Positions 18,296 to 51,253 of a DNA stretch of 51,701 nt are shown in pieces (within the stretch, counting starts at the first letter, position 1; every line of letters begins with the position of its first letter). Below the pieces are notes generated by a model. The model did not search any database. It was not told the origin of the DNA and worked only from the letters and a program-made list of their open reading frames with translations. Location of the stretch: NCBI GenBank assembly GCA_019749835.1, contig JAIEPJ010000158.1, positions 1 to 51,701 of the forward strand, in the 5' to 3' direction. A program made the translations under genes and the position numbers. The DNA comes from Phreatobacter sp. (GTDB lineage Bacteria; Pseudomonadota; Alphaproteobacteria; Rhizobiales; Phreatobacteraceae).

Positions 18296-18306
18296 CGGTG
18301 AAACCG

Positions 18307-30699: not shown

Positions 30700-30717
30700 C
30701 TTGTAGCTCAGGACAAG
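30700..30717. promoter_or_regulatory. Dyad with T-N11-A, candidate LysR box before the nitrilase operon
   Basis: CTTGT-AGCTCAGG-ACAAG lies 64 bases before the ATG at 30782 in an AT-richer stretch. It contains T-N11-A (30701 and 30713), the generic LysR-type box. The LysR gene ends at 30676, so the dyad sits in the promoter region of the following run. Confidence 0.4.
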
Positions 30718-30781
30718 TTTTTCAGTGTTGCCGACCCTCTGACCCCATGGTTAGCTTCGTCACGCACCCGGGGGATCGGCC

Positions 30782-31588: not shown

Positions 31589-31631
31589 GCCCGCCACTTC
31601 CGCAACCCGCACCGATACAGGGCTGGACTTC

Positions 31632-32297: not shown

Positions 32298-32357
32298 TTC
32301 AGCCGAACGCCACTTCACCCGGGGCCATTACCGGATCATCGCACGAGGGGACTGGAC

Positions 32358-33410: not shown

Positions 33411-33422
33411 TCGCCATCCCGC

Positions 33423-35413: not shown

Positions 35414-35419
35414 ACCGCC

Positions 35420-36214: not shown

Positions 36215-36260
36215 ATCCGAAAAACCACCGCCCCTGCCCTGCCCGGAATGAGTGGGTTCA

Positions 36261-38300
36261 ATGACCACATCTGTTCGCATAGCCGTCGATATCGGCGGCA
36301 CGTTCACTGACATCGAAGTCCTCGATGGGGCGACCGGTCTCGTGCATCAATTCAAGACGCCGAGCACCCCGCGCGATCCCTCGGTCGGCCTGATCGAAGG
36401 CATCCGGCAGGCCTCCCGCAAATTCGGATTCGACACGGCACATATCGAGCAGATCCTGCATGGTACGACCATCGCCACCAACGCCGTGCTCGAGCGCAAG
36501 CTGCCCGACGGCGCCGTCCTGACCACCGCGGGCTTCGAGGATGTCTTGGCGATCGGCCGTCACGGCCGCCGGGATGTCTACGCCATCACGCTGTCTCCGC
36601 CGCCGCCGCTGATCCCGAGGCGACATGCGTTCGGCGTCGTCGAACGGGTGCGGGCGGATGGCAGCGTCGAAACCGCGCTGGACGAGGCGAGCGTCCGCGC
36701 CGCGGCCGCCCGCATCAGAGAGGCGGGAGCATCCGCGGTAGCCGTCTGTTTCCTCCACGCCTACGCGAACCCGGCGCACGAACGACGGGCTGGCGCCATT
36801 CTGGCCGAGGAACTTCCCGGCGTTGCGATCTCGCTGTCATCGGACATCAGCCTCGAAATCCGGGAATATGAGCGGCTGTCGACAACCGTGCTGAACGCGC
36901 TGCTGATGCCGGTCGTGTCGGTCTATGCGGCGAGCCTGGAAAGCCGGTTGCGCGAGGCGGACCTGACCCGGCAGATCTATCTCGTCCAGTCCAATGGCGG
37001 CGTCAGCGGGCTGGCCAAGGCGGCGCGGGAACCGGCGCGCCTCCTCCTGTCGGGTCCAAGCGGAGGGGCCGCAGCCGCCCGGCGCCTCGCCGCCGCCCTG
37101 GACGAACCCAACCTGATCGCCGTCGACATGGGCGGCACCTCCTTCGACATTTCGGTCGTCCATCAGGGGGCTGTGGCAACCGTGAATGAGGGAGAGATCG
37201 ATGGCTTGCCGGTCCGTTTGCCCATGGTCGAGATGCGCACCATCGGAGCGGGGGGGGGCTCGATCGCCTGGGTCGACAACGGCGGGCGGCTAAGGATCGG
37301 TCCTCATTCCGCCGGTGCCTTGCCTGGACCCGCCTGCTACGGGCGAGGCGGCCTTGAGCTGACCGTGACGGATGCCAACCTCATTCTCGGCCGGCTGGAT
37401 GCAAAGGCCTTCATGGGAGGCGCCATGACGCTCGACCGGGACAAGGCGGTCGCCGCGGCCGCGCCCCTTGCGCGAGCACTCGGCCTGTCCGTCGAGGAGG
37501 TCGCGGCTGGCGTCATTGCCGTCATCAATTCCAACCTGTCGACGGCGATCCGGTTGTCGCTCTTCGAAAAAGGCCTCGATCCCGATGATTTCGCCCTCCT
37601 CTCCTTCGGCGGAGCGGGAGGCGTCCACGCCTGCGAAGTCGCCGATGATCTGGGCGTCAACCGGGTCATATTCCCCGAGCATGCCTCGACGCTGTCGGCC
37701 TGGGGCATCTTGTGGTCGGACATCACCCACGACCTCACGACCACCGATATCGGCCCGCTCGAAGGGGCCGGCGAGAAGCTTGCCCGCCATGCGGCCCGGA
37801 TGACGGCGGAAGCCGAGCGTCTGTTTGCCGAGGATGGCACGCCGGAGGCAGCACGCGAGCTTCGCTTCAGTCTCGACCTGCGCTATGCCGGCCAGGCTTT
37901 TGATCTCCCCGTACCGGTGGACGGTGCGGACTTCTCTCCGTCGGCGCTCGCCGAAATCGCGCGCCGCTTCCATGCCGTTCATCGTCAGCGCTTCTCCTAT
38001 GACGAACCGCATACCGCGGTCGAAATGGTCGCGCTTCGACTGGCTGCGATCGGCAGACTGCCGAAACCGGTCCCGTCGCCGGGCACTAGTCGCCCGGCAG
38101 GGACGGCGCCGATGATGAGGCCGGTCCACGTCGACGGACGGGTTCAGGATGTCGCAGTCTTCGACCGAGGCGGGCTGGGCGACCAGGTGGCCCGAGGGCC
38201 CGCCATCGTGTCGGAGACCTACACCTCGTCATACATTCCGCCCGGCTGGAATGCCGCAATCGCAAGCAGCGGCGCCTTGATCGCGCGGCGCCTCGCGTGA
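36261..38300 (+). CDS. hyuA: Hydantoinase/oxoprolinase subunit A (HyuA)
   Basis: A 679-residue HyuA/5-oxoprolinase A/acetone carboxylase beta-like protein. The phosphate-binding IAVDIGGTFTD lies at residues 7-17, ILHGTTIATNAVLERK near 64, and the second actin-like phosphate loop VDMGGTSFDIS near 290. These subunits phosphorylate a cyclic amide or ketone using ATP; with HyuB they hydrolyse N-methylhydantoin or 5-oxoproline, or in relatives carboxylate acetone. No gamma subunit of acetone carboxylase is present, which favours a hydantoinase/oxoprolinase role. A GTG three codons upstream is an alternative start. It follows the Pot-type importer and is directly before hyuB, so the importer may bring in the cyclic substrate. 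Confidence 0.92.
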   Translation: MTTSVRIAVDIGGTFTDIEVLDGATGLVHQFKTPSTPRDPSVGLIEGIRQASRKFGFDTAHIEQILHGTTIATNAVLERKLPDGAVLTTAGFEDVLAIGRHGRRDVYAITLSPPPPLIPRRHAFGVVERVRADGSVETALDEASVRAAAARIREAGASAVAVCFLHAYANPAHERRAGAILAEELPGVAISLSSDISLEIREYERLSTTVLNALLMPVVSVYAASLESRLREADLTRQIYLVQSNGGVSGLAKAAREPARLLLSGPSGGAAAARRLAAALDEPNLIAVDMGGTSFDISVVHQGAVATVNEGEIDGLPVRLPMVEMRTIGAGGGSIAWVDNGGRLRIGPHSAGALPGPACYGRGGLELTVTDANLILGRLDAKAFMGGAMTLDRDKAVAAAAPLARALGLSVEEVAAGVIAVINSNLSTAIRLSLFEKGLDPDDFALLSFGGAGGVHACEVADDLGVNRVIFPEHASTLSAWGILWSDITHDLTTTDIGPLEGAGEKLARHAARMTAEAERLFAEDGTPEAARELRFSLDLRYAGQAFDLPVPVDGADFSPSALAEIARRFHAVHRQRFSYDEPHTAVEMVALRLAAIGRLPKPVPSPGTSRPAGTAPMMRPVHVDGRVQDVAVFDRGGLGDQVARGPAIVSETYTSSYIPPGWNAAIASSGALIARRLA

Positions 38301-38320
38301 TCGTTTCGGGAGAGCCTGCC

Positions 38321-39958
38321 ATGGAAACCATCGGTCCCGTTCGCGTCGAGGTCATCCGCAATGCGCTTGTCGCAGCCGCAGAGGAGATGAGCCTCACCAT
38401 CTGGAGAACCAGTCGTTCGACGGTCGTCCGTGAAATCCTCGACTACTCCACCGCCGTGTTCGACTCGCGGGGGCAGAACATCGCCCAGTCCGCCCGGATT
38501 CCTGTTCACCTCAATTCGATGTCCGCATGTCTCGAGACGCTGCTCTCCGCTCATTTTCCGCTGGATGGCTGGCAGGACGGCGACATCGTCATCACCAATG
38601 ACCCCTATTCCGGCGGGCAGCACCTGCCGGACATCATGACCTTCCGACCGGTTTTCGCCGGCGAGACACGGATCGGCTTCGTCGGCACCCTTTGTCATCA
38701 CGTCGATGTCGGTGGTGGCGCCGCCGGGAGCTACTATGCCGGTGCTCGCGAGATCTTCCAGGAAGGCATCCGCATCCCCCCCCTGAAGCTTGCCGAACGC
38801 GGCGTGGTCAATGAGGCTATCCTCAAAATGGTGCTGGCCAATGTGCGCCAGCCTGACGAGACGAGCGGAGACCTGCAGGCCCAGATCGCGGCGCTGGGGA
38901 TCGGTGTCGGCGCCGTGCAGCGGATCATCCATCGCTACGGCACCCCTGACCTGATGCAGGCGATGCAGGCGATCCTCGAGGGTTCCGAGCGCATGATGCG
39001 GGCCGCGATTGCGTCCTTGCCGGACCGGACCGCGCATTTCGTGGAACTCGTTGACGATGACGGCCAGACGGAAGGTCCGATCCGGCTGTCGGTCCGGATC
39101 GAGCGGCAGGGAGACGGTATCGTCATCGATTTCGACGGGTCGAGCCCGCAGGTGCAGGGGCCGGTGAACAATACCCGCGCCATGACCTGCTCGGCTGTCT
39201 ATTACGCGGTTCTCGCCGCACTCGGTGCGGAAATTCCGGCCAATTCAGGATGTTATCGCCCGATCACCGTGCGGGTTCCACCCGGCAGCGTGGTCGATGC
39301 GCAGTTCCCGGCGCCGGTCACAGGTCGCATGGTTGTCAATCACCGGATCGCCACGGCCGTGTTCGGCGCGCTGGCGCAGCTCATCCCGGCGCGAATCCCG
39401 GCCGCCTATTACGCGATATCCTATGTCTATGCCCTGGCGACGGTCGAAGCGACCGGACGACGCCGGGTCTATTTCGACATCGAGGTCGGCGGCTGGGGCG
39501 GGCACGCAGGCGGAGATGGCGCAAGCGCCCTCTCCTGCGGCCTCCACAACAATACGAATGCCCCCATCGAGATGGTGGAGGCGCGATATCCGGTGACCTT
39601 CACCCATTACGGGCTCATTCCGGATTCCGGGGGGGACGGACAGCACCGCGGCGGGCTCGGGCTTTCCCGCGCCTTCCGGCTCGACGCGGATAACGGATCG
39701 CTGAGCACGAATTTCGAGCGGTTCCGGCATCCGCCCTATGGGCTCGCCGGGGGAAAGCCCGGATCCCTCAGCAGGACCACCATCACGCGGGCGGACGGCA
39801 CCTCGATATCGCTCGCCTCCAAGGTCTCGGGGATCGCGATGCAACGCGGCGACGTGCTCACCATTGAAACATCCGGCGGTGGCGGCTGGGGGGATCCGGC
39901 AGAACGCGCCGAGGAAGCCCGCTCACGCGACCTTGCCGAGGGATATGTCACGCGATGA
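38321..39958 (+). CDS. hyuB: Hydantoinase/oxoprolinase subunit B (HyuB)
   Basis: A 545-residue HyuB/5-oxoprolinase B-like subunit. NDPYSGGQHLPDIMTFRPVF near residue 96, LCHHVDVGGGAAGSY near 126 and the C-terminal GGGGWGDPAERAEE are family hallmarks; the clustered His and Asp in the second block are the likely metal site. The frame can begin at a GTG overlapping the hyuA stop, but GGGAGAG at 38308-38314 lies 6 bases before the ATG at 38321, which I prefer. It completes the two-subunit ATP-dependent ring-opening enzyme. It converges with the SDR gene, 41 bases between stops, without a clear terminator. Confidence 0.92.
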   Translation: METIGPVRVEVIRNALVAAAEEMSLTIWRTSRSTVVREILDYSTAVFDSRGQNIAQSARIPVHLNSMSACLETLLSAHFPLDGWQDGDIVITNDPYSGGQHLPDIMTFRPVFAGETRIGFVGTLCHHVDVGGGAAGSYYAGAREIFQEGIRIPPLKLAERGVVNEAILKMVLANVRQPDETSGDLQAQIAALGIGVGAVQRIIHRYGTPDLMQAMQAILEGSERMMRAAIASLPDRTAHFVELVDDDGQTEGPIRLSVRIERQGDGIVIDFDGSSPQVQGPVNNTRAMTCSAVYYAVLAALGAEIPANSGCYRPITVRVPPGSVVDAQFPAPVTGRMVVNHRIATAVFGALAQLIPARIPAAYYAISYVYALATVEATGRRRVYFDIEVGGWGGHAGGDGASALSCGLHNNTNAPIEMVEARYPVTFTHYGLIPDSGGDGQHRGGLGLSRAFRLDADNGSLSTNFERFRHPPYGLAGGKPGSLSRTTITRADGTSISLASKVSGIAMQRGDVLTIETSGGGGWGDPAERAEEARSRDLAEGYVTR

Positions 39959-39999: not shown

Positions 40000-40782
40000 C
40001 TACATGATGGTGCCGCCGTCGACCAGGAGATCGTGGCCGGTGATGTTGCGAGAGGCATCGCTGGCGAGGAACACAATGGCATTCGCAATGTCGCTCGCCC
40101 GGCTGAGGCGACGCATGGCGGCACCACTGACGAACCGGTCGAACATGGCGGCAGGCGCGATGTCGCGGCGGGCGGCTTCCTCCGCCAGCCAGCCGTCGAA
40201 ACTGGGGCCCTCGACACCACCGGGGGCAACGATGTTGATGCCGACACCATGGCGCCCGGCCTCGACCGCCGCCGATTTCGTGACGCCCCGCAGGGCCCAT
40301 TTCGAGGCTGCGTAGAGCGAATTGCCCTCGACGCCGCGATGGCCGAACGTGCCGCCGACATTGACGATACGGCCACTCTTCTGGCCGATCATGGTCGGCA
40401 GGACGTATTTCATGGTCAGAAAGACACCCTTCACATTGGTGTCGAAGAAGCGGGCAAAATCCTCCACTGGCTGATCCCAGAGCGGCACGGGATCACGGGC
40501 GGAGACACCGGCGGCATTGACCAATACATCGATCCGGCCACCGCCGAAGTCACGCGCCTTGTGAACCATCGCCGCGACCTCGCCGGGCTCGCGCAGGTCG
40601 GCCTTGACCACCTCGACACGCCGCCCGAGCGCCGCCACCTCCTCGGCGACACCCTGCAGGGCGTCGACGTCACGGCCGACCATGACCAGATGCGCGCCCT
40701 CCTCGGCGAGCGCCAGTGTCACATCCCGGCCCAGCCCCTTCGCTGCCCCGGTGATGATGGTGATCTTGTCCCTGAGCCTCAT
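40000..40782 (-). CDS. SDR family oxidoreductase
   Basis: A 260-residue classical short-chain dehydrogenase. TGAAKGLG is the cofactor loop near residue 12, NAAGVS near 88, and the catalytic residues lie in the segment ending YAASKWALRG (Tyr-x3-Lys). The usual catalytic Ser before it is replaced by the run VGGTFGHRG, which has Thr and no Ser, a mild oddity. The C-terminus closes with GHDLLVDGGTIM. It oxidises or reduces an alcohol/keto group with NAD(P). GAGGA lies 4 bases before the ATG; the frame open above is overlap. It is the last gene of the ten-gene leftward run and would handle a late intermediate. Confidence 0.92.
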   Translation of the reverse strand: MRLRDKITIITGAAKGLGRDVTLALAEEGAHLVMVGRDVDALQGVAEEVAALGRRVEVVKADLREPGEVAAMVHKARDFGGGRIDVLVNAAGVSARDPVPLWDQPVEDFARFFDTNVKGVFLTMKYVLPTMIGQKSGRIVNVGGTFGHRGVEGNSLYAASKWALRGVTKSAAVEAGRHGVGINIVAPGGVEGPSFDGWLAEEAARRDIAPAAMFDRFVSGAAMRRLSRASDIANAIVFLASDASRNITGHDLLVDGGTIM

Positions 40783-40796
40783 CGGATCCTCGCTGG

Positions 40797-41987
40797 TCAG
40801 TTGGTCAACCGGGAAAGGGGACGTCCACCGCGCCACACGCCACGGACGGCGCCCAACGCCTCGATGGCATCGAGCGGATTTCCAGCGACCGCGACCAGAT
40901 CCGCAGCGAAGCCGGCACGGATCCAGCCGATCCGGCTTTCACGGCCGATCAGACGTGCGGCCGTGCCCGTTAGGGCGGCGATGACCCGGGCCTCGGGCAG
41001 GCCGAGCTCCACGGCTAGCCGCGCGTCTTCGGCGATCTGGCCGTGCATGTTGTCGGTACCGAGGCCGAAATCCTGCCCGCCCGCAGCGATCGCGCCGCAG
41101 AGCCAGGCCAGGCGTTTCTTGGCGCGTTCCAGCCGCTCCAGCACAACGGGATTGTCACTCGCACTGCGCGCGATGCCCCCCGGCGCGAAAAAGCGGGACA
41201 GCGTCAGCACCGGCATTGTGGCGGAAGCGCTGAGGGCGGCGAGGTCTGCAGCGTCGAACAGCGCACAATGCTCGATCGACACGGCCCCGCGGGCAGCCGC
41301 CATCGCGACCGCCGGGCCACCATGGGCCGCGACCGCCACCGGCAGGGCCGCGGCGGCCGCCTCCGCAAACAGCAGGTCGAGGTCATCTGCGCTATAGAGC
41401 GGTGCAAGCGCGTCGTTGCCAGCACCGTTGATGCCGCCGGTGAGCACCAGCTTGAGGAAATCAAACCCGGCTGCCGCCCGCTGGCGAACGGCTTGGCGCA
41501 GCGCATCGGATGTATCGATGCCACCGCTGGCAGGCGCCTGGTGCGAGCCCGTCGGCGCGATCGGGGCCCCGCAGACGACCAGGGTCGGTCCGTCGATATC
41601 GCCGCCGCGCACCGATCTGGAAAGCTCCAGGTCCAGCCCGTTCCCCTCCCCCATCACGCGCTGGGTGGTAACGCCCGAGCGCAGATCCGTGAGCATGTGG
41701 GCAAGCGCCGTGCGGCGACGCCCCGGCAGATCGGGGTCGAACATCCGCCGCATGGGTTCCGGGCGATCGGGATCGACGGACAGATAGCCGTGGAGATCGA
41801 TGAACCCCGGAAGCAGGGTCAGTCCGGCGAGCTCCACCTCTTCCGCCTCGCCGCCACCGAGACCGCCCGTAGCCCCGACGTCGGCAATCAGGCCGTCCTG
41901 GATGCGCAGGGCTGTTCCCATCGGCAGGCCTTTGCCATCACCGTCGATGATCCAGTCGGGCTTCAGGATCTGCGGCCTCGCCGTCAT
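40797..41987 (-). CDS. Amidohydrolase (imidazolonepropionase/prolidase-like) with HxY metal motif
   Basis: A 396-residue metal-dependent amidohydrolase. It starts with the beta-sandwich part (DWIIDGDGKGLPMGTALRI) and then the barrel. Lys179 (LKLVLTGG, candidate carbamylated Lys), His222 (AAHGG), His240 (IEHC) and Asp312 (GTDNMHG) are present. The first metal motif, normally His-x-His, is His66-Gly-Tyr68 (GFIDLHGYLS), confirmed from the bases. Loss of one ligand may change metal content. Family members open cyclic amides or cleave dipeptides. It overlaps the DUF6282 gene by 4 bases, and the SDR gene starts 14 bases after it. A cyclic amide hydrolase in an N-heterocycle pathway is the working idea. 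Confidence 0.87.
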   Translation of the reverse strand: MTARPQILKPDWIIDGDGKGLPMGTALRIQDGLIADVGATGGLGGGEAEEVELAGLTLLPGFIDLHGYLSVDPDRPEPMRRMFDPDLPGRRRTALAHMLTDLRSGVTTQRVMGEGNGLDLELSRSVRGGDIDGPTLVVCGAPIAPTGSHQAPASGGIDTSDALRQAVRQRAAAGFDFLKLVLTGGINGAGNDALAPLYSADDLDLLFAEAAAAALPVAVAAHGGPAVAMAAARGAVSIEHCALFDAADLAALSASATMPVLTLSRFFAPGGIARSASDNPVVLERLERAKKRLAWLCGAIAAGGQDFGLGTDNMHGQIAEDARLAVELGLPEARVIAALTGTAARLIGRESRIGWIRAGFAADLVAVAGNPLDAIEALGAVRGVWRGGRPLSRLTN

Positions 41988-42895
41988 GCGAGAGCCGGCA
42001 GCCCAAGCAGGCGGGCCGGGTTGCGGCGGGCCATCACATCAATGTCCGCTGCCGAAAATCCATGTGCCACCAGGATCCGCAACCACATCCGGAAGCCCTC
42101 GATCGGGTGGGCATTGTCGTGCTGGCCGAGATCGGTGGATGCGACGCAGTTCTCAACGCCCACGGCGCGGATCCGGTTGGCGAAGTCCTTGGGGCTGGCC
42201 TGCTGGCGGTTCGGCATCAGCGGATTGACCGTGAACTCGAAGGTGCAGCCGAGGGCGAGCATCGCCGTCATCGCCTCGACCGGCCAGTCCGTCGCATGCC
42301 ATCCCACATGCGTGATGACCACCCGCTCATAGCCGATGCGCCGGGACTCGCGCAGGACCGCCATGACCTCATCCAGCGACACGTGACCGGTGCCGAGCAC
42401 CAGATCGGCCTGCTTGCAAAGGGCAATGATCTCGACGACTTCGGGCTTCAATTCCCCTTCGGCGTCCAGCAGCGACAGCGGCTCTGCCTTGGTGCGGGTG
42501 CGTTCCAGCCCAAGCGCGGTCTGCCAGGGATAGGTCGGCATGCCGAAATGGCGCTGGTGATGAGCCGCATGGACCGTCGGCAACCAGACGACCTTCACGC
42601 CGAACCCGATGGCGGCGCTGAGCGCTTCTGGATTCAGCCCCCCGACCGGATGGTTGAGCACAATGGAGCCGAAAAGATCGATCCCCGGGACCACCTTGCG
42701 GACGAGCTCCACACGGTCGGCATTCGGCACATAGATGCTCTTGAGAACGAGGCCGCGATATCCGGCAGCGCGGGCCTGCTCGGCGCATTCGATCTCATCG
42801 AACGGGCGCTCCAGGAGGCAGGGATGGGCGTGAAGATGCATGTCGATGACGCCATGCATCATGTCCCGGTCGGCTCGCGACAATTCCATCGTCAT
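41984..42895 (-). CDS. DUF6282 family amidohydrolase-like protein
   Basis: A 303-residue protein that I place in DUF6282, a little-studied branch of the amidohydrolase fold. The metal motif VIDMHLHAHP gives His20, His22 and His24 at the N-terminus; LVLGTGHVSLDEV, VVITHVGWHAT and STDLGQ supply the later His/Asp ligands expected for a TIM-barrel hydrolase. It has no signal peptide. It overlaps the following amidohydrolase gene and lies 55 bases after the NicX-like gene, so both probably act one after the other on the ring-opened product. No activity is established for the family to my knowledge. Confidence 0.85.
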   Translation of the reverse strand: MTMELSRADRDMMHGVIDMHLHAHPCLLERPFDEIECAEQARAAGYRGLVLKSIYVPNADRVELVRKVVPGIDLFGSIVLNHPVGGLNPEALSAAIGFGVKVVWLPTVHAAHHQRHFGMPTYPWQTALGLERTRTKAEPLSLLDAEGELKPEVVEIIALCKQADLVLGTGHVSLDEVMAVLRESRRIGYERVVITHVGWHATDWPVEAMTAMLALGCTFEFTVNPLMPNRQQASPKDFANRIRAVGVENCVASTDLGQHDNAHPIEGFRMWLRILVAHGFSAADIDVMARRNPARLLGLPALA

Positions 42896-42950
42896 GCTCT
42901 TGCGTGCCCTCGCTCATCACGATTTCGGCCCGGGGTGAATGCGGATCGAC

Positions 42951-43994
42951 CTAGTGGTGCGGCACGCCCATGGCCTTGCACAGCCGGGCGAGAACGGGAT
43001 GGGTGTACCGGCCGTTTTCCTGCAGCGGCACGCCATTCGCCTTGATCGTCACCTGACGACAGGTGAAATCGAAATGTCCGGCTGCCGGCCGGCCGACCCA
43101 GGCGCCGAACCCGAAGTCGATATCGCCGAAGGCACGCTCGTCCTCGACCACCCGGCCGGTCGGGACGGGAATGCCGGGATTGAACCCCATCGACACATGG
43201 GCGATGCGATACATGGTGTCGTCGGCAAGCTGATCGATCCACTTTTTCAGCAGCAGCGCCTCCCGGGCGCCGGCAATATCGACGATGCGCCCCTTGGCGA
43301 TTTCGAACCGCACGGTCTCGCTCATGATGCCAACTTCGGAGGGCGGATAGAGGATGCCGTCCGCCACAAGGTGTCCTTTCATGGACTCCTCGACAGGCGA
43401 CCACGAGACCTGTCCGGCCAGCATGATCGGGGTCTTCTCAGGCGTCGTCTTCATCTTGAACTCGCCGACCTTGCATCCCCTGTTGGAGAAGACGATCGAC
43501 GAGCCGGCCTCGCTCGTCACCTCAACCTCGGCATCGGTAAGCAGGCGGATGATCTCGTCGCCCATCTCGGCCATCAGACCGATATTCTGCCGGCCGATGC
43601 AGCGCACCATGCCGTCGACATCCATGCCGCCGAGCTCGCAATAGAGGACACCGGCATCGAGCGCCGCCTGCCAGGCTTCGGTGTACATGGTGTAGGCGAC
43701 GGCCTGTTCGATCCAGATATCGGCGGCGGCAACGGCAGCGGCGACGGGCGCCGGAGGCTCCATCTGCGGCCGGGGCTGGGTGTGGTACCACATGACGCTC
43801 GGGACACCGCCGGCCGCGTAGATGGCGCGGGCGCTGGCCCAGACGACGCGGGCGTCGCTGGACGTGTCTGCCGTGATGACGACGGTCATGCCGGGCCGGA
43901 TCTCCAGCACCTCCTCGGCGAGCTTGCGGGCCGCCCGCTCCATCTCGAACGACAGATACTCGTCGCGGGCTTCCATGACCGAGGCCAGGCGCAT
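42951..43994 (-). CDS. NicX/M29-like metalloprotein (2,5-dihydroxypyridine dioxygenase or aminopeptidase T family)
   Basis: A 347-residue protein related to the M29 aminopeptidases and to NicX, the iron-dependent 2,5-dihydroxypyridine 5,6-dioxygenase (about 350 residues). The C-terminal metal triad expected for NicX is visible: His266 in RIAHVSMGFNP, then His307 and Asp309 in AGHFDF. Length and spacing are closer to NicX than to the ~410-residue aminopeptidase T. Genes for a Mo-hydroxylase lie directly upstream, as in nicotinate degradation, though nicC, nicD and nicE are absent. The ATG at 43994 has GGAGA upstream; the 26-codon upstream extension is non-coding. An 18-bp repeat shared with the LysR promoter region lies 70 bases before the start. 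Dioxygenase versus peptidase is unresolved. Confidence 0.8.
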   Translation of the reverse strand: MRLASVMEARDEYLSFEMERAARKLAEEVLEIRPGMTVVITADTSSDARVVWASARAIYAAGGVPSVMWYHTQPRPQMEPPAPVAAAVAAADIWIEQAVAYTMYTEAWQAALDAGVLYCELGGMDVDGMVRCIGRQNIGLMAEMGDEIIRLLTDAEVEVTSEAGSSIVFSNRGCKVGEFKMKTTPEKTPIMLAGQVSWSPVEESMKGHLVADGILYPPSEVGIMSETVRFEIAKGRIVDIAGAREALLLKKWIDQLADDTMYRIAHVSMGFNPGIPVPTGRVVEDERAFGDIDFGFGAWVGRPAAGHFDFTCRQVTIKANGVPLQENGRYTHPVLARLCKAMGVPHH

Positions 43995-44063
43995 GAGGGT
44001 GTCTCCATCATCACGGGTTGAATGCAACACACCATGCGGCGGCGGCCCGCCGAACTGCGGACT

Positions 44064-44081
44064 GGCTATCACCTGATGCCG
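44064..44081. repeat. 18-bp element, copy 1 (upstream of the NicX-like gene)
   Basis: GGCTATCACCTGATGCCG, identical to 50195-50212. It lies in the 90-base gap between the coxS-like stop (44085) and the NicX-like ATG (43994), with the palindromic core ATCA-CC-TGAT. It is a candidate operator for an internal promoter of the ten-gene run. Confidence 0.65.
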
Positions 44082-44084
44082 AGG

Positions 44085-44534
44085 TCATCGGAACAGGGCC
44101 CTGATGGCCCGGCGGATGCCGCCATAGCCGGTACAGCGACAGAGATGCCCGGACAGCGCGAGTTCCACCTCGGGTGCCGACGGCCGCGGCGACAGGCCGG
44201 CGAGATAGGTGATGGAAACCAGGAAGCCGGGGGCACAGGCGCCACACTGAAAGGCATGGTTCTCCGCGAGGGCCTGCCGTACGGCATCGGCCGCCGGCCC
44301 GTCGAGGCCGTCGCCGGTCGTGACGCGGCGGCCATGAACCCGCGCCAGCGGCATGAGGCAGGCATTGACCGGCTCGCCGTCGAGCAACACGACACAGGCG
44401 CCGCATCGTCCGATGCCGCATCCGGCCTTCGGAGCCACCCGGTCGAGATGGTCGCGCAAGGCCTCAAGCAGGGTCGGTGCGGCGTTGCCCGGGAGGCTGA
44501 CCGTCGCCCCATCGACGATGAACGAAAAGGTCAA
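44085..44534 (-). CDS. (2Fe-2S)-binding subunit of molybdenum hydroxylase (CoxS-like)
   Basis: A 149-residue iron-sulfur subunit. The plant-type ferredoxin cluster is CGIGRCGAC plus a later Cys (VNACLMPL). The second, helical cluster is CGAC (AFQCGACAPGF) paired with CRC in GHLCRCTGYGGIRRA. It relays electrons from the Mo site to FAD. No ATG fits; the start is TTG at 44534, which overlaps the stop of the large subunit gene (TTGA) and has GGGAGAG five bases upstream. The longer open frame above lies within the large subunit gene and is not real. It is the third of the M, L, S genes and complete. Confidence 0.9.
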   Translation of the reverse strand: MTFSFIVDGATVSLPGNAAPTLLEALRDHLDRVAPKAGCGIGRCGACVVLLDGEPVNACLMPLARVHGRRVTTGDGLDGPAADAVRQALAENHAFQCGACAPGFLVSITYLAGLSPRPSAPEVELALSGHLCRCTGYGGIRRAIRALFR

Positions 44535-46696
44535 AGGGTCTCTCCCAGATGCGCCAGCATCGCCTGCGGGTCCACCGGCAGCCGGCGGCAGACGAAGCCG
44601 GTGGCGGCAAGCACCGCATTGGCGATAGCCGGTGCCGCGACATTGGTCCCGATCTCGCCGACGCCCCGCGGACCCGCGACATCGGGCGGAATATCGGCGA
44701 TGCAACGGACGTCGCAGTCGAAGGCGTCAGCGATGGTGGGCGCGAAATAGCCGTCGAGGTTGGAGGCGCGGAACCGCCCCTGCTCCGCCGGAAGGTCCTC
44801 GCTGACGACGAGGCCGGCGGCCAGTGACGCGCCGCCAGCCAGTTGCCCGGTGATTGCCGTGGTATCGAGCACGGGACCCGTGACCGGCACGATCACCATG
44901 CGCCGCACCTCGACACGGCCGGTGAAGCTGTCGACGGCGACCTCGGCCATGGCCGCGCAGGCGGTGAACAGGGCATGGCAGGCCCCCTCGCCGTCCGGAG
45001 GAACGATGGCGGGCGCCAGGCCCGTGACCGCGATGGGCGCCGCCGCGAACGCCGCCCAGCCGATGAGGGGTCGGTTGGATGGCGTTGTCCGGCTGTAGAC
45101 ACCACCCGCGCCCATGGCGAGGGCATCGACGGGAACGCCCGTCGCCTGGGATGCGCGAGACAGCACGGTGGCGAGGAAGGCGGGGGCGGCCGAAGCCAGG
45201 CTGCGCCACAGCACACCCGCCCCGCGGCTTGCTGCGACGGGGCCTGAATCCGGCGCCAGGAGACTGTCTCCGGCAACGACGGTCACATCCTCCATGGCGC
45301 AGCCGATGAGTCGTGTCGCCGCGTGGGTCGCCGCCAGCGTCAGGCCCTGGCCGAGGTCGGACAGCCCGGTACGGACCACGATACGTCCATCGACCAGCGC
45401 GAGGACGCTGGTACCGGCATTGGGGCCGCCCGGCGAGAACCCCTCGTTCTTCTCGACCAGGGCGATGCCGGAGCCCGTCAACCACCGACCGGCACGCCGG
45501 GCGGGTGCGCCTCGCGGCAGCGCCGCCAGAGCCCGGCTGTGCCATGCGGGCGCGGCGAGGGTCTGGCCCAACTGGCCCGTGGCGCTTTCGGAGCGGAGAT
45601 TCTGCTGTCGAAACGCGCACGGACTGATGCCAAAAGCGGCAGCCAGCCGGTCGATCTGCTGCTCCAGCGCGATCTGGACCTGCACGCCGCCGAAGCCGCG
45701 CATCGCGCCGGCGATACCGTTGTTCGTGTAGGCGAGGCGACCGGACAGGTCGACGGCAGCCCAGGCATAGGGACCCTGAGCATTTTCATGGGCGGTATCG
45801 AGGACCTCGGGGCCATGTTGGGCATAGGCGCCGGTATCGGCCAACAGGTCGACCTCATGGGCGGTCAGGCGGCCCGCGGCATCGGCTCCGCTGCGCATCC
45901 GGATCGTGAAGGGATGGCGTTTGACGCCAATGGCGAAACTCTCCTCCCGCCGCCAGATCAACCGCACCGGCCGGCCGGTCACATGGGCGAGGAGAGCGGC
46001 AAGCGGCTGTGCATGGAGACAGTCCTTGCCGCCATAGGAGCCACCGACGGGACTGGCGACGACACGCACCTGCGCCTCGGGCAGCGCGAGCATCGCTGCA
46101 ATGTCACGGGCCTCGGCGCTCGCCCAGTGCCCGGGCCCGAAAACCGTGAGACTGCCATCGGCGGGAATGGCGACGGCGCCCTCGGGCTCGATGAAATGGT
46201 GGACCTGGCGCGGGGTGACATAGACGTCCTCGACGACATGAGCGGACCGGTTGAAGGCCGCGGCAAGGTCACCGCGCCGATAGCGCGTGCTATGCAGGAG
46301 GTTCGAGGTCTGGTGGATCGATGGCGCGCCCTCGGCGAGAGCCGCCGCCGGGTCCCCTAGAACCGGGAGGCCTTTCCAGCGCACCGCGATACGTTCGACC
46401 GCGCACCGCGCGATCGCCGGACTGTCGGCGGCGACAGCCGCGACCGGGTCGCCCACCGTTCGCACCTTTCCGGCGCAAAGATAGGGCTGATCGGCGACCC
46501 GCACGCCGAAGGCGTTACGGCCGGGGATATCCGCCGCCGTCACCACCGCCCGGACGCCGGGCAAGGCCATGGCGGCGGTGATGTCGATGGCGACGATCTC
46601 GGCATGGGGATGGGGGCTGCGAAGCACCGCAGCATGCAAAAGGCCCGGTGCCGAGATGTCGGTGAGGAAGCGGAAGCCGGGCGTCAGGACGGTCAT
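44531..46696 (-). CDS. Xanthine dehydrogenase family molybdopterin-binding subunit (CoxL-like)
   Basis: A 721-residue large subunit of a Mo hydroxylase. LLHAAVLRSPHPHAEI near residue 19, VGGSYGGKD near 217, AMRGFGGVQVQIALEQQ near 330 and GVGEIGTNVAAPAIANAV with the catalytic Glu681 are the family landmarks. It lacks the CO-dehydrogenase active-site loop AYxCSFR, so it is not a true CO oxidiser. It begins a little later than most members but loses no motif. Such enzymes hydroxylate an electron-poor carbon, commonly next to N in purines, nicotinate, isoquinoline or quinaldine. It overlaps both the FAD and FeS subunit genes by 4 bases, giving strict coupling. Confidence 0.93.
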   Translation of the reverse strand: MTVLTPGFRFLTDISAPGLLHAAVLRSPHPHAEIVAIDITAAMALPGVRAVVTAADIPGRNAFGVRVADQPYLCAGKVRTVGDPVAAVAADSPAIARCAVERIAVRWKGLPVLGDPAAALAEGAPSIHQTSNLLHSTRYRRGDLAAAFNRSAHVVEDVYVTPRQVHHFIEPEGAVAIPADGSLTVFGPGHWASAEARDIAAMLALPEAQVRVVASPVGGSYGGKDCLHAQPLAALLAHVTGRPVRLIWRREESFAIGVKRHPFTIRMRSGADAAGRLTAHEVDLLADTGAYAQHGPEVLDTAHENAQGPYAWAAVDLSGRLAYTNNGIAGAMRGFGGVQVQIALEQQIDRLAAAFGISPCAFRQQNLRSESATGQLGQTLAAPAWHSRALAALPRGAPARRAGRWLTGSGIALVEKNEGFSPGGPNAGTSVLALVDGRIVVRTGLSDLGQGLTLAATHAATRLIGCAMEDVTVVAGDSLLAPDSGPVAASRGAGVLWRSLASAAPAFLATVLSRASQATGVPVDALAMGAGGVYSRTTPSNRPLIGWAAFAAAPIAVTGLAPAIVPPDGEGACHALFTACAAMAEVAVDSFTGRVEVRRMVIVPVTGPVLDTTAITGQLAGGASLAAGLVVSEDLPAEQGRFRASNLDGYFAPTIADAFDCDVRCIADIPPDVAGPRGVGEIGTNVAAPAIANAVLAATGFVCRRLPVDPQAMLAHLGETL

Positions 46697-47478
46697 GCCG
46701 CCCCCCGCGCCAGTTCCTCGACGAGCCGACCCGTAATCAGCCGGGCTGCCACCCGCCGGCGATGGTCCGCGCTGGCCAGGGCGTCGGACACCGTATCCAG
46801 TTCGTCCTCAATCGTGTCCGCGAGGCACTGCCAGTCGAAGCCACCGAGCGACACACCCGTAAGCAGCGCTTCGGCCCGTCCGAGCCGCTGTGGACGTGTC
46901 ACCCCGCCCCCGGCCGCGATCCGGACGCTGGTTACGCGCTGCTCCAGGACTTCGGCGCACAGGGCGACGGTGATCAGCGTCGGCGAGAAGGCCGCCCGGT
47001 AGCCTGCCTTCTCGACAAAGGACATCGGCGGCTGGGGCGGCAGCCGCACCGCCAGGAGCAAGGCGCCGGCAGGAAGCGAGACCGCATCATGGACCCCTTC
47101 GGAGGTCTCCAGGCGGGCATCATGGGCGAGCAGGAAGGGAACGAGGTCGCCCGCTCCCCAGCCGACATTGCCACCGACAGTGGCGAGTGTGCGAACGCCG
47201 AGCCCGGCGACGAGTCCGAGCAATGCCACCAGCGCGGGATTGCGCGCCATCACGCGCGCATCACGACGAAGACGCTCAAGGGTGACCAGCGCGCCGATGA
47301 GGAGCGAGCCGCCGTCCGCGGCTTCGTCGATGCCATCGAGGCCGGGAAGCCGGGAGATGTCGATGAGATTGTCATCGGGAGCGGCGCCCGGCCTCAGCAC
47401 GGTGCGCCCCGCAGCAAAGAGGCCGCCTGCCTGGCTGAGGGCCACGGCCTCCGCGAGCGTCGAGGGCTTAGGAATCAT
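46693..47478 (-). CDS. FAD-binding subunit of molybdenum hydroxylase (CoxM-like)
   Basis: A 261-residue FAD subunit. TLATVGGNVGWG near residue 112 is the second FAD-binding loop. The first loop, usually AGGTDL, is here FAAGRTVLRP, a variation. The C-terminal CO_deh_flav_C part covers about 160-255. It passes electrons from the iron-sulfur subunit to an acceptor. Gene order M-L-S with 4-base overlaps marks a single enzyme. It follows the importer permease by 7 bases, so uptake and first oxidation are made from one message. Confidence 0.92.
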   Translation of the reverse strand: MIPKPSTLAEAVALSQAGGLFAAGRTVLRPGAAPDDNLIDISRLPGLDGIDEAADGGSLLIGALVTLERLRRDARVMARNPALVALLGLVAGLGVRTLATVGGNVGWGAGDLVPFLLAHDARLETSEGVHDAVSLPAGALLLAVRLPPQPPMSFVEKAGYRAAFSPTLITVALCAEVLEQRVTSVRIAAGGGVTRPQRLGRAEALLTGVSLGGFDWQCLADTIEDELDTVSDALASADHRRRVAARLITGRLVEELARGAA

Positions 47479-47485
47479 GGCCGGT

Positions 47486-48307
47486 TCAATCGCGACGGAT
47501 GCGGTCGTTCTCGACCGACCAGGGAAAGAAGACCCTCTCGGTCAGAACGACGAGACCGAACAGGACGACCCCGGTCGCGGACAACAGGACCACCGCGCCG
47601 AAAGCGAGCGGTACATTGAAGAAGGCCGTCGACTGGGTGATCAGATAGCCGAGGCCGGCATTGGCGGTGACGAATTCGGAGACGACGGCGCCAATGACGC
47701 TCAGTGATATGGCGACCTTGAGCCCGGCGAAGATGAAGGGAACCGCCCCGGGCAGCCGGATCATCCAGAGATCCTGGAAGAAACTGGTTCGCATCATCCG
47801 GGAGAGGTCGACGACCTCCCGCGGAGTTGCGAGGAGCCCCGTCACCGTGGAAATCAGCAGCGGGAAGAAGGCGATCAGGAAGGCGACAGTCGTTCGCGAA
47901 AGCTGCCCGGTCCCCATGATTACCACCAGGATCGGCGCGATCGCGATCATCGGCGTCGACTGTGTGATCAAGAGCAGCGGGTAGACCGCACGCGCCACCA
48001 CCGGTGACGAGGCAATGGCGACGGCCAGGGGGATCGCGATCAGGACGGAGGTACCGAAACCCAGGACGACGGTCAGCAAGGTAGCCGCGATATTGCCGGG
48101 CAGATGCGGACCGGTCGCGACCAGTTCCTGCAGTATCCGGCTGGGCGCAGGAAGCAGGAACGGCCTGATGCCGAACAGGTGGACCGCACCCTCCCAGAGG
48201 AGCAACAGGCTCCCCAGCGAGCAGACGGGAATGAGGATGCCCTGGGCGGTGCGCCAGAACCTCCCGAGGCTAGAGGGTTGGGCGATCAGCCGTTCCATCG
48301 TGTCCAT
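47486..48307 (-). CDS. ABC transporter permease, NitT/TauT type
   Basis: A 273-residue inner-membrane permease with six spans. The ATPase-contact loop is REVVDLSRMMRTSFFQDLWMIRLPGAVPFIFAGLK around residues 170-205. GGAG five bases before the ATG at 48307 decides the start, which puts the first 38 bases inside the end of the ATPase gene. Such a long overlap is unusual beside the 1-4 base overlaps elsewhere in this run. It forms the channel for the binding protein encoded at 49067-50092. Confidence 0.92.
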   Translation of the reverse strand: MDTMERLIAQPSSLGRFWRTAQGILIPVCSLGSLLLLWEGAVHLFGIRPFLLPAPSRILQELVATGPHLPGNIAATLLTVVLGFGTSVLIAIPLAVAIASSPVVARAVYPLLLITQSTPMIAIAPILVVIMGTGQLSRTTVAFLIAFFPLLISTVTGLLATPREVVDLSRMMRTSFFQDLWMIRLPGAVPFIFAGLKVAISLSVIGAVVSEFVTANAGLGYLITQSTAFFNVPLAFGAVVLLSATGVVLFGLVVLTERVFFPWSVENDRIRRD

Positions 48308-49067
48308 AAATGCTCCGGCGGATGCGATCGGTCGCTGTCTGGAAGGCGCGGTCGTGCATGCTGGCCACCGAGCGCGGCCGCGGCAGGTCGATCGGCACGA
48401 TATCGGCGATGCGTCCGGGGCGCGGTGTCATCACCACTACGCGGTCGGACAGAAGGACGGCCTCGGGAATGGAATGGGTGACGAAGACGATGGTCTTGCG
48501 ACGCGCCTCCCAGATCCGCAGCAACTCGAAACACATCTCCTCGCGAGTCATCGCGTCGAGAGCACCGAAGGGCTCGTCCATTAGGAGAATGTCGGGATCC
48601 TGGATCAAGGCGCGGCAGATGGCGGCCCGTTGCTGCATGCCGCCGGAAAGCTCCTGCGGGTGTTTGCCGCCGAACTGGCCGAGCCCGACCATGTCCAGCA
48701 GCGCCTTGGCGGCGGCGACGTCCGCCGCCTCCGGTCGGCCTTTGCGCACCCTGACGGGCAACAGCACGTTCTTCTCGATGGTCAGCCAGTGCAGCAGGGT
48801 CGCCTTCTGGAAGACCATGCCGACGCGATCCCGGCCCTCGGCGCCAGGCCGGCCGGCGATGCGGATAGCACCGCGGGTGATGGGGTCGAGACCGGCGATC
48901 AACCGCAGAGCCGTCGACTTGCCACAGCCCGAGGGTCCCACGATAGCGACGAATTCGCCGACGGAGACATCGAGGCTGACATCATCCAGCGCTCGCACCT
49001 CCGAGCCGTCGCGGGAGAGGTAGGCCTGACTGACGGCATCGAGCGCCAGGATCGGTGTGCTCACCAT
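48270..49067 (-). CDS. ABC transporter ATP-binding protein, NitT/TauT type
   Basis: A 265-residue ATPase. Walker A GPSGCGKST, signature ELSGGMQQRAAICRAL, Walker B LLMDEPFGALD and the switch His in FVTHSIPEAV are complete. Its ATG at 49067 overlaps the binding-protein stop by one base (TGATG); a TTG one codon earlier is possible. It is the second gene of the ten-gene leftward run. It resembles the ATPase of the importer at 7.5-10.9 kb, but the gene order differs (here binding protein first), so the two are not a recent local duplication. Confidence 0.92.
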   Translation of the reverse strand: MVSTPILALDAVSQAYLSRDGSEVRALDDVSLDVSVGEFVAIVGPSGCGKSTALRLIAGLDPITRGAIRIAGRPGAEGRDRVGMVFQKATLLHWLTIEKNVLLPVRVRKGRPEAADVAAAKALLDMVGLGQFGGKHPQELSGGMQQRAAICRALIQDPDILLMDEPFGALDAMTREEMCFELLRIWEARRKTIVFVTHSIPEAVLLSDRVVVMTPRPGRIADIVPIDLPRPRSVASMHDRAFQTATDRIRRSIYGHDGTADRPTL

Positions 49068-50092
49068 CAACCGCGCGGCAGCAAGCCACGCGCCACGAAG
49101 ACCTCAGGGTCCGTCGCGGCGGCGGGCAGAGACTGGGCCTCCGCGAGAAGCTCCCACGTCCGCTTCACTTGCGCCGCATCGAGGCTCCCCGTCGGCAGGC
49201 GGCGGGCAACCTCGCTGTCGAACATCAGCTTCGTGGCGATCTCCATGGCCGCGAAGTCACCCTCGGGATTGAGGCCGGGGACAGCCGCCTGGATGGCCGC
49301 GAAAGCGGTGCGGGCATTGTCGCGGGTGAACTCGAGCGAGCGCACGAGGGCCGCGGCGAACCGGCGCACCAGATCGGCCTTGCCGGCAATCGTCGCCTCG
49401 GAGGCGAAGAGCACATTGCCGTAGATCTGCAGCGTATCGGCGAATTCGAGGGCATTGACGGCGCCGCCCTGCTGGCGCGCCATGCCATTGAAGCGCGGCA
49501 GGTTGGGCAGGAAACCCATGACCGCATTCACCTGTCCGGAGACGAGCAGCGGCCCCATCGTCGCGGGTTCCGACTGGATCATCTCGATCTTGGCAATGTC
49601 CACATTGTTGCGGGCCAGAACCAGCGGCAGGAACACCCGGACCGAACTGCCCGGGGCGCCGGCCAGCTTCTTGCCCTCGAGATCCTTGAAACTGCGAATG
49701 CCGGAGGCCGCCAGCACGAAGAGCGAGTGCGGTGGGCGGGTGTAGATGGAGGCGATGGCCTTCACCGGAACCTGCGTCCGCACGCGGCCGGCCATCAGGG
49801 ACCCGATATCGGCGATACCGAACTCGGCGACGCCGGTCGCGATCTTGGTGACCGTGTCGGCTCCGCCGAAGCCGCGCTCGATCGTCAGGTCGATGCCGGC
49901 CTCACGAAAGAAACCCTGGGCGAGGCCGGCATAATAGGCGGCGTAGTCGCCCGTCGGCAGCCAGTCGAGCAGCAGCTTGACGGCATCCCGGGCCTGCGCA
50001 TGCGCCGCCCTGCCCGGCCCGGTGACAAGCCCTGCCGCGCCGAGTCCCGCCGCCACGAAGGAGCGCCTGTTGATTCCTCTCGTCGTCGACAT
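49067..50092 (-). CDS. ABC transporter substrate-binding protein, NMT1/SsuA-like
   Basis: A 341-residue periplasmic binding protein. GINRRSFVAAGLGAAGL is a twin-arginine signal, cleaved near AHAQA (about residue 33). The mature start VKLLLDWLPTGDYAAYYAGLAQGFFREAGIDLTIERG is the classic NMT1/THI5-like opening, whose best-known members bind pyrimidine-type or other heterocyclic compounds. It is the first gene of the ten-gene leftward run and is divergent from the LysR gene at 50324, with an 18-bp element between them. A heterocyclic ligand fits the Mo-hydroxylase downstream but is inferred. Confidence 0.92.
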   Translation of the reverse strand: MSTTRGINRRSFVAAGLGAAGLVTGPGRAAHAQARDAVKLLLDWLPTGDYAAYYAGLAQGFFREAGIDLTIERGFGGADTVTKIATGVAEFGIADIGSLMAGRVRTQVPVKAIASIYTRPPHSLFVLAASGIRSFKDLEGKKLAGAPGSSVRVFLPLVLARNNVDIAKIEMIQSEPATMGPLLVSGQVNAVMGFLPNLPRFNGMARQQGGAVNALEFADTLQIYGNVLFASEATIAGKADLVRRFAAALVRSLEFTRDNARTAFAAIQAAVPGLNPEGDFAAMEIATKLMFDSEVARRLPTGSLDAAQVKRTWELLAEAQSLPAAATDPEVFVARGLLPRG

Positions 50093-50194
50093 CCCGCCAA
50101 ACCCCTCTTGCCGTCGCCTGCAGCAACCGCGTTCTCAGCGCCACGATCTGAAAGCAAAGCCTGGGCCAGGATGCCCTATGGTCAACGGCCGATC

Positions 50195-50212
50195 GGCTAT
50201 CACCTGATGCCG
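50195..50212. repeat. 18-bp element, copy 2 (LysR / importer divergent region)
   Basis: GGCTATCACCTGATGCCG, identical to 44064-44081, in the 231-base gap between the binding-protein ATG (50092, minus) and the LysR ATG (50324, plus). It abuts a perfect palindrome GCCGATCGGC (50188-50197) that the other copy lacks. It is a candidate operator for the LysR protein. Confidence 0.65.
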
Positions 50213-50323
50213 GGGAGCGGCCCGGGCGATGGGCGACCAATGCCGCAGCGCCCCCTAGGGACCCGCGCCGGACTCACCTCGTCTGGCACGCCGTTTGCTG
50301 GACTTTGGAGGGAGAAAAACGCC

Positions 50324-51253
50324 ATGAACTTCCAGCGCTTGAACTACTTCCGGGCGGCCGCGGAGTTTGGCAGCCTGCGCAAGGCGGCGGAGGCCTTGAA
50401 CATCTCTCAACCCTCGTTGTCCCGCCAGATCCAGATCCTCGAACATGAACTCCGTGCGCCCCTGTTTCTTCGCCAGAGCAAGCGGCTGACGCTCACTCCG
50501 GCTGGCGTGCTGCTCGCCAGTCGGATCGGCGGAATGCTCGACGAGGTCGAAGCCATCCAGCGCGACATCGCCAAGCTGTCCGACGATCGCCGGCTGCACA
50601 TGCGGATCGGCGCGATTCAGTCGACCTGCGATTTCCTGATGCCGCGCGCCATCGGCGCGTTGCGCGCCAAATTTCCCGACCTCCAGGTGGCGGTCCACGG
50701 CGTCCGCTCGACCGAGATCATCGAGCAGGTTGGCCGCAGGAGCCTCGATCTCGGCATCGTCGCCGCACCGGTCAGCGACCCGCGGGTGGTACAGACGGCC
50801 CTGGCAACGGACCCGTTCCGCATGATCGCCTCACGCCGCCACCGCCATGCGGCCATGCGGCGTCTGTCGCTGGAATCGCTCGATGCGGAGCCCTTCGTGA
50901 CCTTTCCGCGAGGCTTCGCCCTGCGCGATCAGATCGAGGCCGTGTTCGATGCCAACAGACTGTCGATGAATGTGGTGGTGGAACTCGAATCGATCGAGGC
51001 CATCAAGGAACTGGTGCGTGAAGGTGGCGGCGTCTCGTTGCTGCCGAGTTCGACACTGATGGGCGACAAGAACGTCCGCGAACTCGCGATCATCACGATC
51101 GACGATCACGTCATTGCGCGCGAGATCGTCGCTGTCCGGCATGTCGGAGACAAGATTTCCCGTCCCGTTCTGTTTCTCCAGAACGCGATCCAGAACGCCT
51201 TGCACCTTTCCAGCGCCTCGCCCCGAGACGCCTACCTCATGTCCTCGGGCTAG
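50324..51253 (+). CDS. LysR family transcriptional regulator
   Basis: A 309-residue LysR regulator. The winged helix (1-60) reads MNFQRLNYFRAAAEFGSLRK, then AAEALNISQPSLSRQIQILE and LRAPLFLRQSKRLTLTPAG. The effector domain spans about 92-300 (LHMRIGAIQSTCDFLMPRAI). GGAGGGAG ends nine bases before the ATG. The frame is open far upstream through the gap and the binding-protein gene, but this is a chance effect of GC richness. It is divergent from the ten-gene run and the obvious candidate to control it. Confidence 0.94.
   Translation: MNFQRLNYFRAAAEFGSLRKAAEALNISQPSLSRQIQILEHELRAPLFLRQSKRLTLTPAGVLLASRIGGMLDEVEAIQRDIAKLSDDRRLHMRIGAIQSTCDFLMPRAIGALRAKFPDLQVAVHGVRSTEIIEQVGRRSLDLGIVAAPVSDPRVVQTALATDPFRMIASRRHRHAAMRRLSLESLDAEPFVTFPRGFALRDQIEAVFDANRLSMNVVVELESIEAIKELVREGGGVSLLPSSTLMGDKNVRELAIITIDDHVIAREIVAVRHVGDKISRPVLFLQNAIQNALHLSSASPRDAYLMSSG

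Follow-up and report, generated by a model that had tools for sequence, protein, structure and literature searches.

Gene content of the locus

We analyzed a 51,701-nucleotide stretch of a Phreatobacter draft genome (contig JAIEPJ010000158.1; 326 contigs, 85% complete), referred to here as the window, in which ten minus-strand genes (40000 to 50092) run away from a divergent gene for a LysR-type regulator. An earlier note, made from the sequence alone, had named the families of this leftward run and read it as a degradation system for an N-heterocycle. All ten genes were present, open, and co-directional. Pfam families were found for nine of the proteins, while the tenth, a relative of the 2,5-dihydroxypyridine (DHP) dioxygenase NicX, passed no Pfam or NCBIfam cut-off and was placed by profile comparison; the families named in the note were borne out in this way.

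Reading down from position 50092, the first three genes encode an importer, with an NMT1/THI5-like substrate-binding protein (49067 to 50092; Pfam PF09084, 130.1 bits), an ATP-binding cassette (ABC) transporter ATPase (48270 to 49070, starting at a TTG or at 49067; Pfam ABC_tran, the ntrCD subfamily being the best match and below its cut-off), and an ABC transporter permease (47486 to 48307; Pfam BPD_transp_1). The three subunits of a molybdenum (Mo) hydroxylase follow, namely, a CoxM/PucC-like flavin adenine dinucleotide (FAD) subunit (46693 to 47478; Pfam FAD_binding_5 and CO_deh_flav_C), a PucD-like large subunit (44531 to 46696; Pfam Ald_Xan_dh_C and MoCoBD_1/2), and a CoxS/PucE-like [2Fe-2S] subunit (44085 to 44534; Pfam Fer2 and Fer2_2) whose TTG start overlaps the large-subunit stop. 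The last four genes encode a 347-amino-acid NicX-superfamily protein (42951 to 43994), a DUF6282 protein (41984 to 42895), an amidohydrolase (40797 to 41987; Pfam Amidohydro_1), and a short-chain dehydrogenase/reductase (SDR; 40000 to 40782; Pfam adh_short_C2) of 260 amino acids counted from the ATG at 40782, its frame being open to 40836.

With the starts that we chose, the junctions from the 50092 end downward measured −4, −38, 7, −4, −4, 90, 55, −4, and 14 bases. Eight of nine were therefore below 60 bases, in agreement with the tight packing described earlier, and the exception was the 90-base gap ahead of the NicX-like gene. For this gene we used the start shared with its homologues at loci L033 and L116 (described below); an alternative GTG start at 44072 would shrink the gap to 12 bases. 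Positions 50093 to 50323 are intergenic, and the divergent LysR gene (309 amino acids; Pfam HTH_1 and LysR_substrate) occupies 50324 to 51253 of the plus strand.

A core smaller than the ten-gene run is conserved

Related loci were found in a second Phreatobacter metagenome-assembled genome (MAG; G394, loci L032 and L062), in a Bauldia MAG (L033, which lies with the adjoining L198 on one 63,065-base contig), and in a third lineage, G519 (L116). The second Phreatobacter MAG carries all ten genes in unchanged order at 93 to 100% identity, implying that the run is more than chance, and its LysR is 96% identical to that of the window. Within the genus, these two were the only genomes with the NicX-like gene among the 12 searched.

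In Bauldia, the NicX-like protein was 73% identical to that of the window, DUF6282 62%, the amidohydrolase 50%, and the SDR 34%. The genes form two divergent runs there, one with a class III aminotransferase, the NicX-like protein, and the amidohydrolase, and the opposite one with DUF6282, the SDR, a LIV-type importer, an aldehyde dehydrogenase, a TRZ/ATZ-like hydrolase, and a LysR. This LysR (L198, 11331 to 12146) shares 46% identity with the window LysR over residues 1 to 272, and no second LysR match at an E value of ≤1e-20 was found in the Bauldia MAG. No Mo hydroxylase or NMT1-type gene turned up across the 21 kb of L033. For the Mo large subunit, the top match in the MAG (35%) lay on a different contig, where one 67-residue piece reached 38%, and none of 11 such matches lay on the contig of the NicX-like locus.

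At L116, the NicX-like protein (57% identity to the window) adjoins an SDR (49%) and is encoded by the last gene of a co-directional run that includes dihydroorotase/allantoinase-like (314 bits against a cut-off of 279 for the dihydroorotase domain model), Gfo/Idh-like (named by eye), and fuconolactonase-like (98.5 against 400 bits) genes. Its importer is related to that of the window (binding protein, 26%; ATPase, 47%; permeases, 35% and 29%). In the 50 kb around the gene, the only region of G519 searched for Mo genes, we detected neither a Mo large subunit nor DUF6282 nor an amidohydrolase of the HGY type (HGY instead of the usual HxH motif).

The earlier note had held that homologous runs without the NicX-like or Mo genes would refute its reading, and Mo genes were found at neither of the two other lineages' loci. 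Since the gene contents of Bauldia and L116 differ from that of the window, we rejected the idea that evolution has conserved the ten genes as one unit. Judged by sequence comparison, the conserved core is smaller and consists of the NicX-like protein, DUF6282, the HGY amidohydrolase, and the SDR under what appears to be a single LysR. The Mo hydroxylase and importer form an entry block; of the loci examined, only those in the two Phreatobacter genomes have it. All three lineages with this NicX clade nevertheless encode an enzyme of an N-heterocycle or cyclic-amide type: the PucD-like Mo hydroxylase in Phreatobacter, the TRZ/ATZ/8-oxoguanine-deaminase-like hydrolase in Bauldia (scoring below every cut-off), and the dihydroorotase/allantoinase-like enzyme at L116.

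The core is rare. Using overlapping samples of the order, class, and phylum, we found the close NicX clade only in the two Phreatobacter genomes and G519 among 397 genomes of the order, and apart from the window's own, there was none in 385 genomes of the class or 398 of the phylum. Matches to the amidohydrolase at an E value of ≤1e-40 came from 3 of the 397 genomes of the order, namely, the same two Phreatobacter genomes and G400, whose relative (L185) is 33% identical and has the ordinary HxH. DUF6282 by itself is more widespread (18 of 385 genomes of the class), and a 61% identical copy occurs in G053 (87% complete), a genome with no NicX-like match.

The NicX-like protein belongs to a separate clade

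A profile built from 18 relatives of the window protein matched the solved NicX structure (7cn3) with an E value of 4.6e-33 over chain residues 17 to 357. The window protein as a single query reached 0.0029 over about 97 residues. M29-type aminopeptidases appeared in the profile search at E values of 0.00094 and above, and the window protein scored 15.3 bits against the Peptidase M29 family (PF02073) cut-off of 27. On these scores we rejected an M29 peptidase as the primary label.

In Pseudomonas putida NicX, the iron is held by His265, His318, and Asp320 with Ser302 as a fourth ligand, and the substrate residues are His105, His189, and Glu177, according to the published description (PMC7910607). 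Measured against that description, the window protein belongs to the same superfamily over nearly its full length and keeps the iron triad, which reads H, H, D in four of four clade members (window, L032, L033, and L116). It differs by the replacement of Ser302 with Gly (again four of four), of His105 with Tyr, and of His189 with Ile or Val. Glu177 is Glu in the window, L032, and L033, Ala in L116, and Val in three of the six relatives that group with NicX in the tree; this stretch aligned differently between alignments. Those six relatives served as a positive control and kept Ser302 and His189 in 6/6 and His105 and Glu177 in 3/6 each. Because His105 is Phe in the other three, His189 is the better marker.

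The tree and motif table covered 31 sequences, that is, NicX and 30 chosen relatives; L077, cut by a contig end, was dropped, and in L182 four of the eight positions were gaps. The window clade was separate, with a support of 1.000. As the tree is unrooted, we name no sister group. By this sequence evidence, the window protein is placed as a NicX-superfamily enzyme of a separate clade and not as NicX or a DHP dioxygenase. The NicX label overstates the case given that Ser302, His105, and His189 are not kept. Among the papers listed by literature searches on NicX-like, aminopeptidase T, and hydantoinase-NMT1 clusters and on 3-hydroxypyridine, none concerned such a locus.

Two observations concern other members of the superfamily. 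The paralogues L072, L075, L119, L120, L121, and L163 have Glu or Gln for the first iron-ligand His and possibly use another metal or catalyze another reaction. At L195, the gene at 17779 to 18810 encodes an NicX-clade protein, with Ser302 and His189 kept, that is annotated as "leucyl aminopeptidase" and is neighbored by alpha/beta-hydrolase, isochorismatase-family, and FAD-monooxygenase genes.

A shared operator-like repeat precedes both blocks

A 32-base repeat (D5) contains the exact 17-mer GGCTATCACCTGATGCC in the gap between the LysR and binding-protein genes (50195 to 50211) and again inside the 90-base gap ahead of the NicX-like gene (44064 to 44080), each on the plus strand. These two were the only exact sites in the draft genome. 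Allowing up to two mismatches added one further genomic site, equal to the backward-read control. The second Phreatobacter MAG keeps both copies, the one corresponding to 50195 exactly and that corresponding to 44064 with one change.

The Bauldia DUF6282/aminotransferase promoter contains the 14-bp core of the repeat, ATCAGGTGATAGCC, with a single change; 100 shuffles gave no hits. The Bauldia site overlaps one of two perfect CTATC-N4-GATAG palindromes (mean of perfect ones in shuffles, 0.0; n = 10). Measured against this palindrome, each window copy has two mismatches, a level at which the window holds 12 sites against 9.75 expected. The palindrome is thus no evidence in the window, and the link to Bauldia rests on the shared 14-mer. 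As related LysR proteins are encoded at both loci, we infer that the repeat is the operator of the divergent LysR. A copy ahead of each block, with no further exact copy in the draft genome, suggests that one regulator probably controls both the importer/Mo block and the NicX-like block; the latter would then have a promoter of its own.

An amidohydrolase with a variant metal motif and a DUF6282 protein

The unusual metal motif noted earlier in the amidohydrolase proved to be HGY in place of HxH in all three clade members (window, L032, and L033), so the canonical binuclear motif is not complete. L185 and the solved 9kov have the ordinary HxH. In the alignment with 9kov, the first His, the Lys, two later His, and the Asp are kept, residues that, as part of HxH, Lys, His, His, Asp, we take to be the metal site of binuclear amidohydrolases. 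Xaa-Pro dipeptidase and Zn arginine carboxypeptidase (2qs8, 3be7, and 9kov) were among its best solved relatives; compared with the Xaa-Pro dipeptidase family, it differs in the HGY motif and scores 155 bits against a cut-off of 500.

The DUF6282 protein is a full member of its family (PF19799; 211.3 bits against a cut-off of 26.8), to which the Pfam entry assigns no function. A D-x-H-x-H motif, H171, and D255 were invariant in 20 of 20 aligned sequences, an alignment from which two of the weakest matches (L050 and L051) were omitted. The family profile weakly matched M19 dipeptidases (from 0.00026), after a designed repeat protein taken as an artefact. Individual members gave weak matches to Peptidase_M19 (5/20), Amidohydro_2 (5/20), and phosphotriesterase (2/20), the window member giving none. 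DUF6282 is probably a divergent metallohydrolase of the amidohydrolase superfamily. Nothing on DUF6282 by name was found in the literature searched.

DUF6282 also occurs elsewhere. On Paracoccus and Agrobacterium plasmids (L193, 8001 to 8900; L194, 8001 to 8921), its gene follows TRAP transporter genes and is itself immediately followed by a gene of the aldolase/citrate lyase family, making this neighborhood another recurrent context. The window genome itself has a second, 32% identical DUF6282 gene (L053; G000, C324, 76874 to 77764).

The Mo hydroxylase of the entry block

The Mo hydroxylase is a member of the xanthine dehydrogenase family, with the FAD, [2Fe-2S], and Mo-binding domains spread across its three subunits. 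The best NCBIfam models were PucD, PucC, and PucE, and all three subunits fell below the equivalog cut-offs (543.8 against 783.65, 98.8 against 306.05, and 133.5 against 254.3 bits, respectively). Residues 9 to 380 of the large subunit best matched Eubacterium nicotinate dehydrogenase (3hrd) among solved structures. The window enzyme is thus like PucCDE xanthine dehydrogenase and 3hrd in having three subunits with all expected domains and differs in its sub-cut-off scores and in a His for the Gln of the 3hrd STQ stretch. The Glu of a GVGE motif near the large-subunit C terminus, which we assume to be the catalytic residue, aligns with a Glu of 1rm6.

Ten Phreatobacter genomes besides the two with the locus gave Mo large-subunit matches of ≤38%. 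The nearest plasmid relatives were 40 to 41% identical and came from Rhizobium; in one annotated record, that of Rhizobium tumorigenes (40.5%), the gene adjoins those for an amidohydrolase, a ring-hydroxylating oxygenase, and an aldehyde dehydrogenase.

Neighborhoods across the wider superfamily

We compared 40 stretches around distant NicX relatives with 40 control stretches. The controls came from 17 genomes and were mostly contig starts, hence not random, and 7 were shorter than 19.9 kb; 16 of these genomes also supplied 22 of the NicX stretches, with the remaining 18 coming from genomes without controls. The NicX-like gene itself was recovered in 33 of its 40 stretches at threshold, and all 40 were kept in the denominators. 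The Mo large subunit was mildly commoner near NicX relatives (8/40 against 3/40), and the Mo [2Fe-2S] subunit was found in 5/40 against 0/40. HyuAB was uninformative (6/40 against 4/40). SDR genes were equally common in both sets (8/40 against 9/40 in controls), and we rejected an SDR neighborhood as evidence.

One group, which we call the GENHPD clade for a motif present in most members, stood out. Around its 13 loci, those nearest to the L067 type (L065 to L071, L073, L074, L076, L078, L172, and L182; another member lies at L195, 9968 to 11020), a Rieske oxygenase was found in 10/13 compared to 1/40 controls (Fisher P = 1.5e-7) and the Mo large subunit in 6/13 compared to 3/40 (Fisher P = 0.004). 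Six of the 13 loci share one genus (g30), making these P values too small; counted by genus, the figures are 5/6 for Rieske and 4/6 for Mo. Ring-oxidation partners are thus usual elsewhere in the superfamily. Like the window protein, clade members (e.g., E5P2_RS34175 of Variovorax sp. SRS16) belong to the NicX superfamily, have the iron triad, and often lie near Mo hydroxylase genes. They differ in being about 25% identical to it, in the usual Rieske oxygenase, and in that neither DUF6282 nor an HGY-type amidohydrolase was found nearby. The searches made turned up no name for this clade.

A candidate route for ring degradation

Most likely, the locus is a catabolic cluster of the heterocycle type whose ring-opening and hydrolase members are unfamiliar. 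More specifically, we propose that it is a LysR-regulated catabolic locus of two joined blocks in which the NicX-like enzyme opens a ring, likely that of an N-heterocycle or cyclic amide, and we give this reading a probability of about one-half. The idea of an N-heterocycle degradation system accordingly survives in part, for the catabolic-looking operon, the importer, the Mo hydroxylase, and a NicX relative with the iron triad are all there, and the ten-gene run as its conserved unit is not. A catabolic role, the iron, ring opening, the N-heterocycle class, and an order of steps would combine as follows. In Phreatobacter, the NMT1-type importer would take up the compound, and the PucD-like Mo hydroxylase would hydroxylate the ring beside the nitrogen to give the substrate of the NicX-like enzyme. 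That enzyme probably binds one Fe(II) by two His and one Asp and opens the hydroxylated ring, after which the two amidohydrolase-type enzymes (the Tyr variant and DUF6282) could hydrolyze open-chain amide products and the SDR could oxidize or reduce an intermediate. In Bauldia, the class III aminotransferase, aldehyde dehydrogenase, TRZ/ATZ-like hydrolase, and LIV importer would replace the entry block.

A fuller version of this proposal is less likely than not: a previously undescribed N-heterocycle route in which an NicX-superfamily enzyme lacking the Ser ligand cleaves a novel ring substrate, the HGY enzyme and DUF6282 process the products, and the LysR and its operator mark, in different bacteria, a core whose entry enzymes are swapped between lineages. 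If true, DUF6282 would gain a first functional context, the ring-cleaving NicX superfamily would gain a new clade whose iron site differs, and an environmental N-heterocycle route could be probed at a compact locus that probably carries its own switch.

Several results weigh against the proposal. Neither of the other two lineages has the Mo enzyme at its locus. The fourth iron ligand and two substrate histidines of NicX are replaced, as described above, and the three loci (window, L033, and L116) yielded no ring hydroxylase of the Rieske or flavin type. At L116, the amidohydrolase, DUF6282, a LysR relative, and the operator are missing as well, with no site of fewer than two mismatches; the best LysR match of G519 (29%) is on a different contig. 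In the window, palindrome sites occur at nearly the expected number. Among the 40 distant NicX relatives, DUF6282 and the window-type amidohydrolase were near none, SDR genes showed no enrichment, and the Mo large subunit showed a mild one; of the GENHPD loci, nearly half (6/13) belong to a single genus.

Some of these points fit a different account, in which the NicX-like protein is an M29 aminopeptidase-like metal hydrolase, the compound broken down is of an amide, peptide, or amine type, with no ring-opening dioxygenase involved, and the Mo enzyme oxidizes an aldehyde or an unrelated substrate. The core does contain two amidohydrolase-type enzymes, the first nearest to dipeptidase and carboxypeptidase groups and the second with weakly M19-like relatives, and the Bauldia partners include a class III aminotransferase and an aldehyde dehydrogenase; the unkept DHP-binding residues and Ser ligand point the same way. 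The profile, however, is far closer to NicX than to M29 peptidases, the Pfam M29 score is below cut-off, and the H/H/D triad is kept, whereas other paralogues in the tree have Glu or Gln for the first His. We consider this account possible, though doubtful. That the DNA holds two unrelated adjoining operons with their own promoters and substrates, one for the importer and Mo genes (50092 to 44085) and one for the NicX-like block (43994 to 40000), is improbable. The 90-base gap with its own repeat copy and the missing Mo block at the Bauldia and L116 loci would suit such a division; set against it are the same repeat ahead of the importer/Mo block, with no other exact copy in the genome, and the order kept in both Phreatobacter genomes carrying the locus.

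Degradation of nicotinate or picolinate by the known type of route through DHP is very improbable in our view and was rejected in its plain form, even with the NicX homology and a Mo large subunit whose first half has nicotinate dehydrogenase as its closest solved match. Ser302 and His189, kept in all six NicX-clade relatives, are missing from the window protein, and genes of the nicC, nicD, and nicE types were not among the 20 proteins examined from 29768 to 51253, consistent with the mismatch to the nic pathway pointed out earlier. We take these three to be of flavin monooxygenase, alpha/beta-hydrolase, and Asp/Glu-racemase-type families, none of which was found among the same 20 proteins.

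Neighboring genes

A second catabolic-looking run lies on the plus strand at 29768 to 39958, convergent on the operon. Its genes are those for a LysR, a CN_hydrolase, an RraA-like aldolase, an ABC importer (two permeases and a binding protein of the SBP_bac_8 type), HyuA, and HyuB. Its HyuA is nearest to the caprolactamase alpha subunit, below cut-off. HyuB is convergent on the operon in the second Phreatobacter MAG as it is in the window. An isochorismatase-type query weakly matched (49 bits) the minus strand of the window at about position 7843, some 32 kb from the operon.

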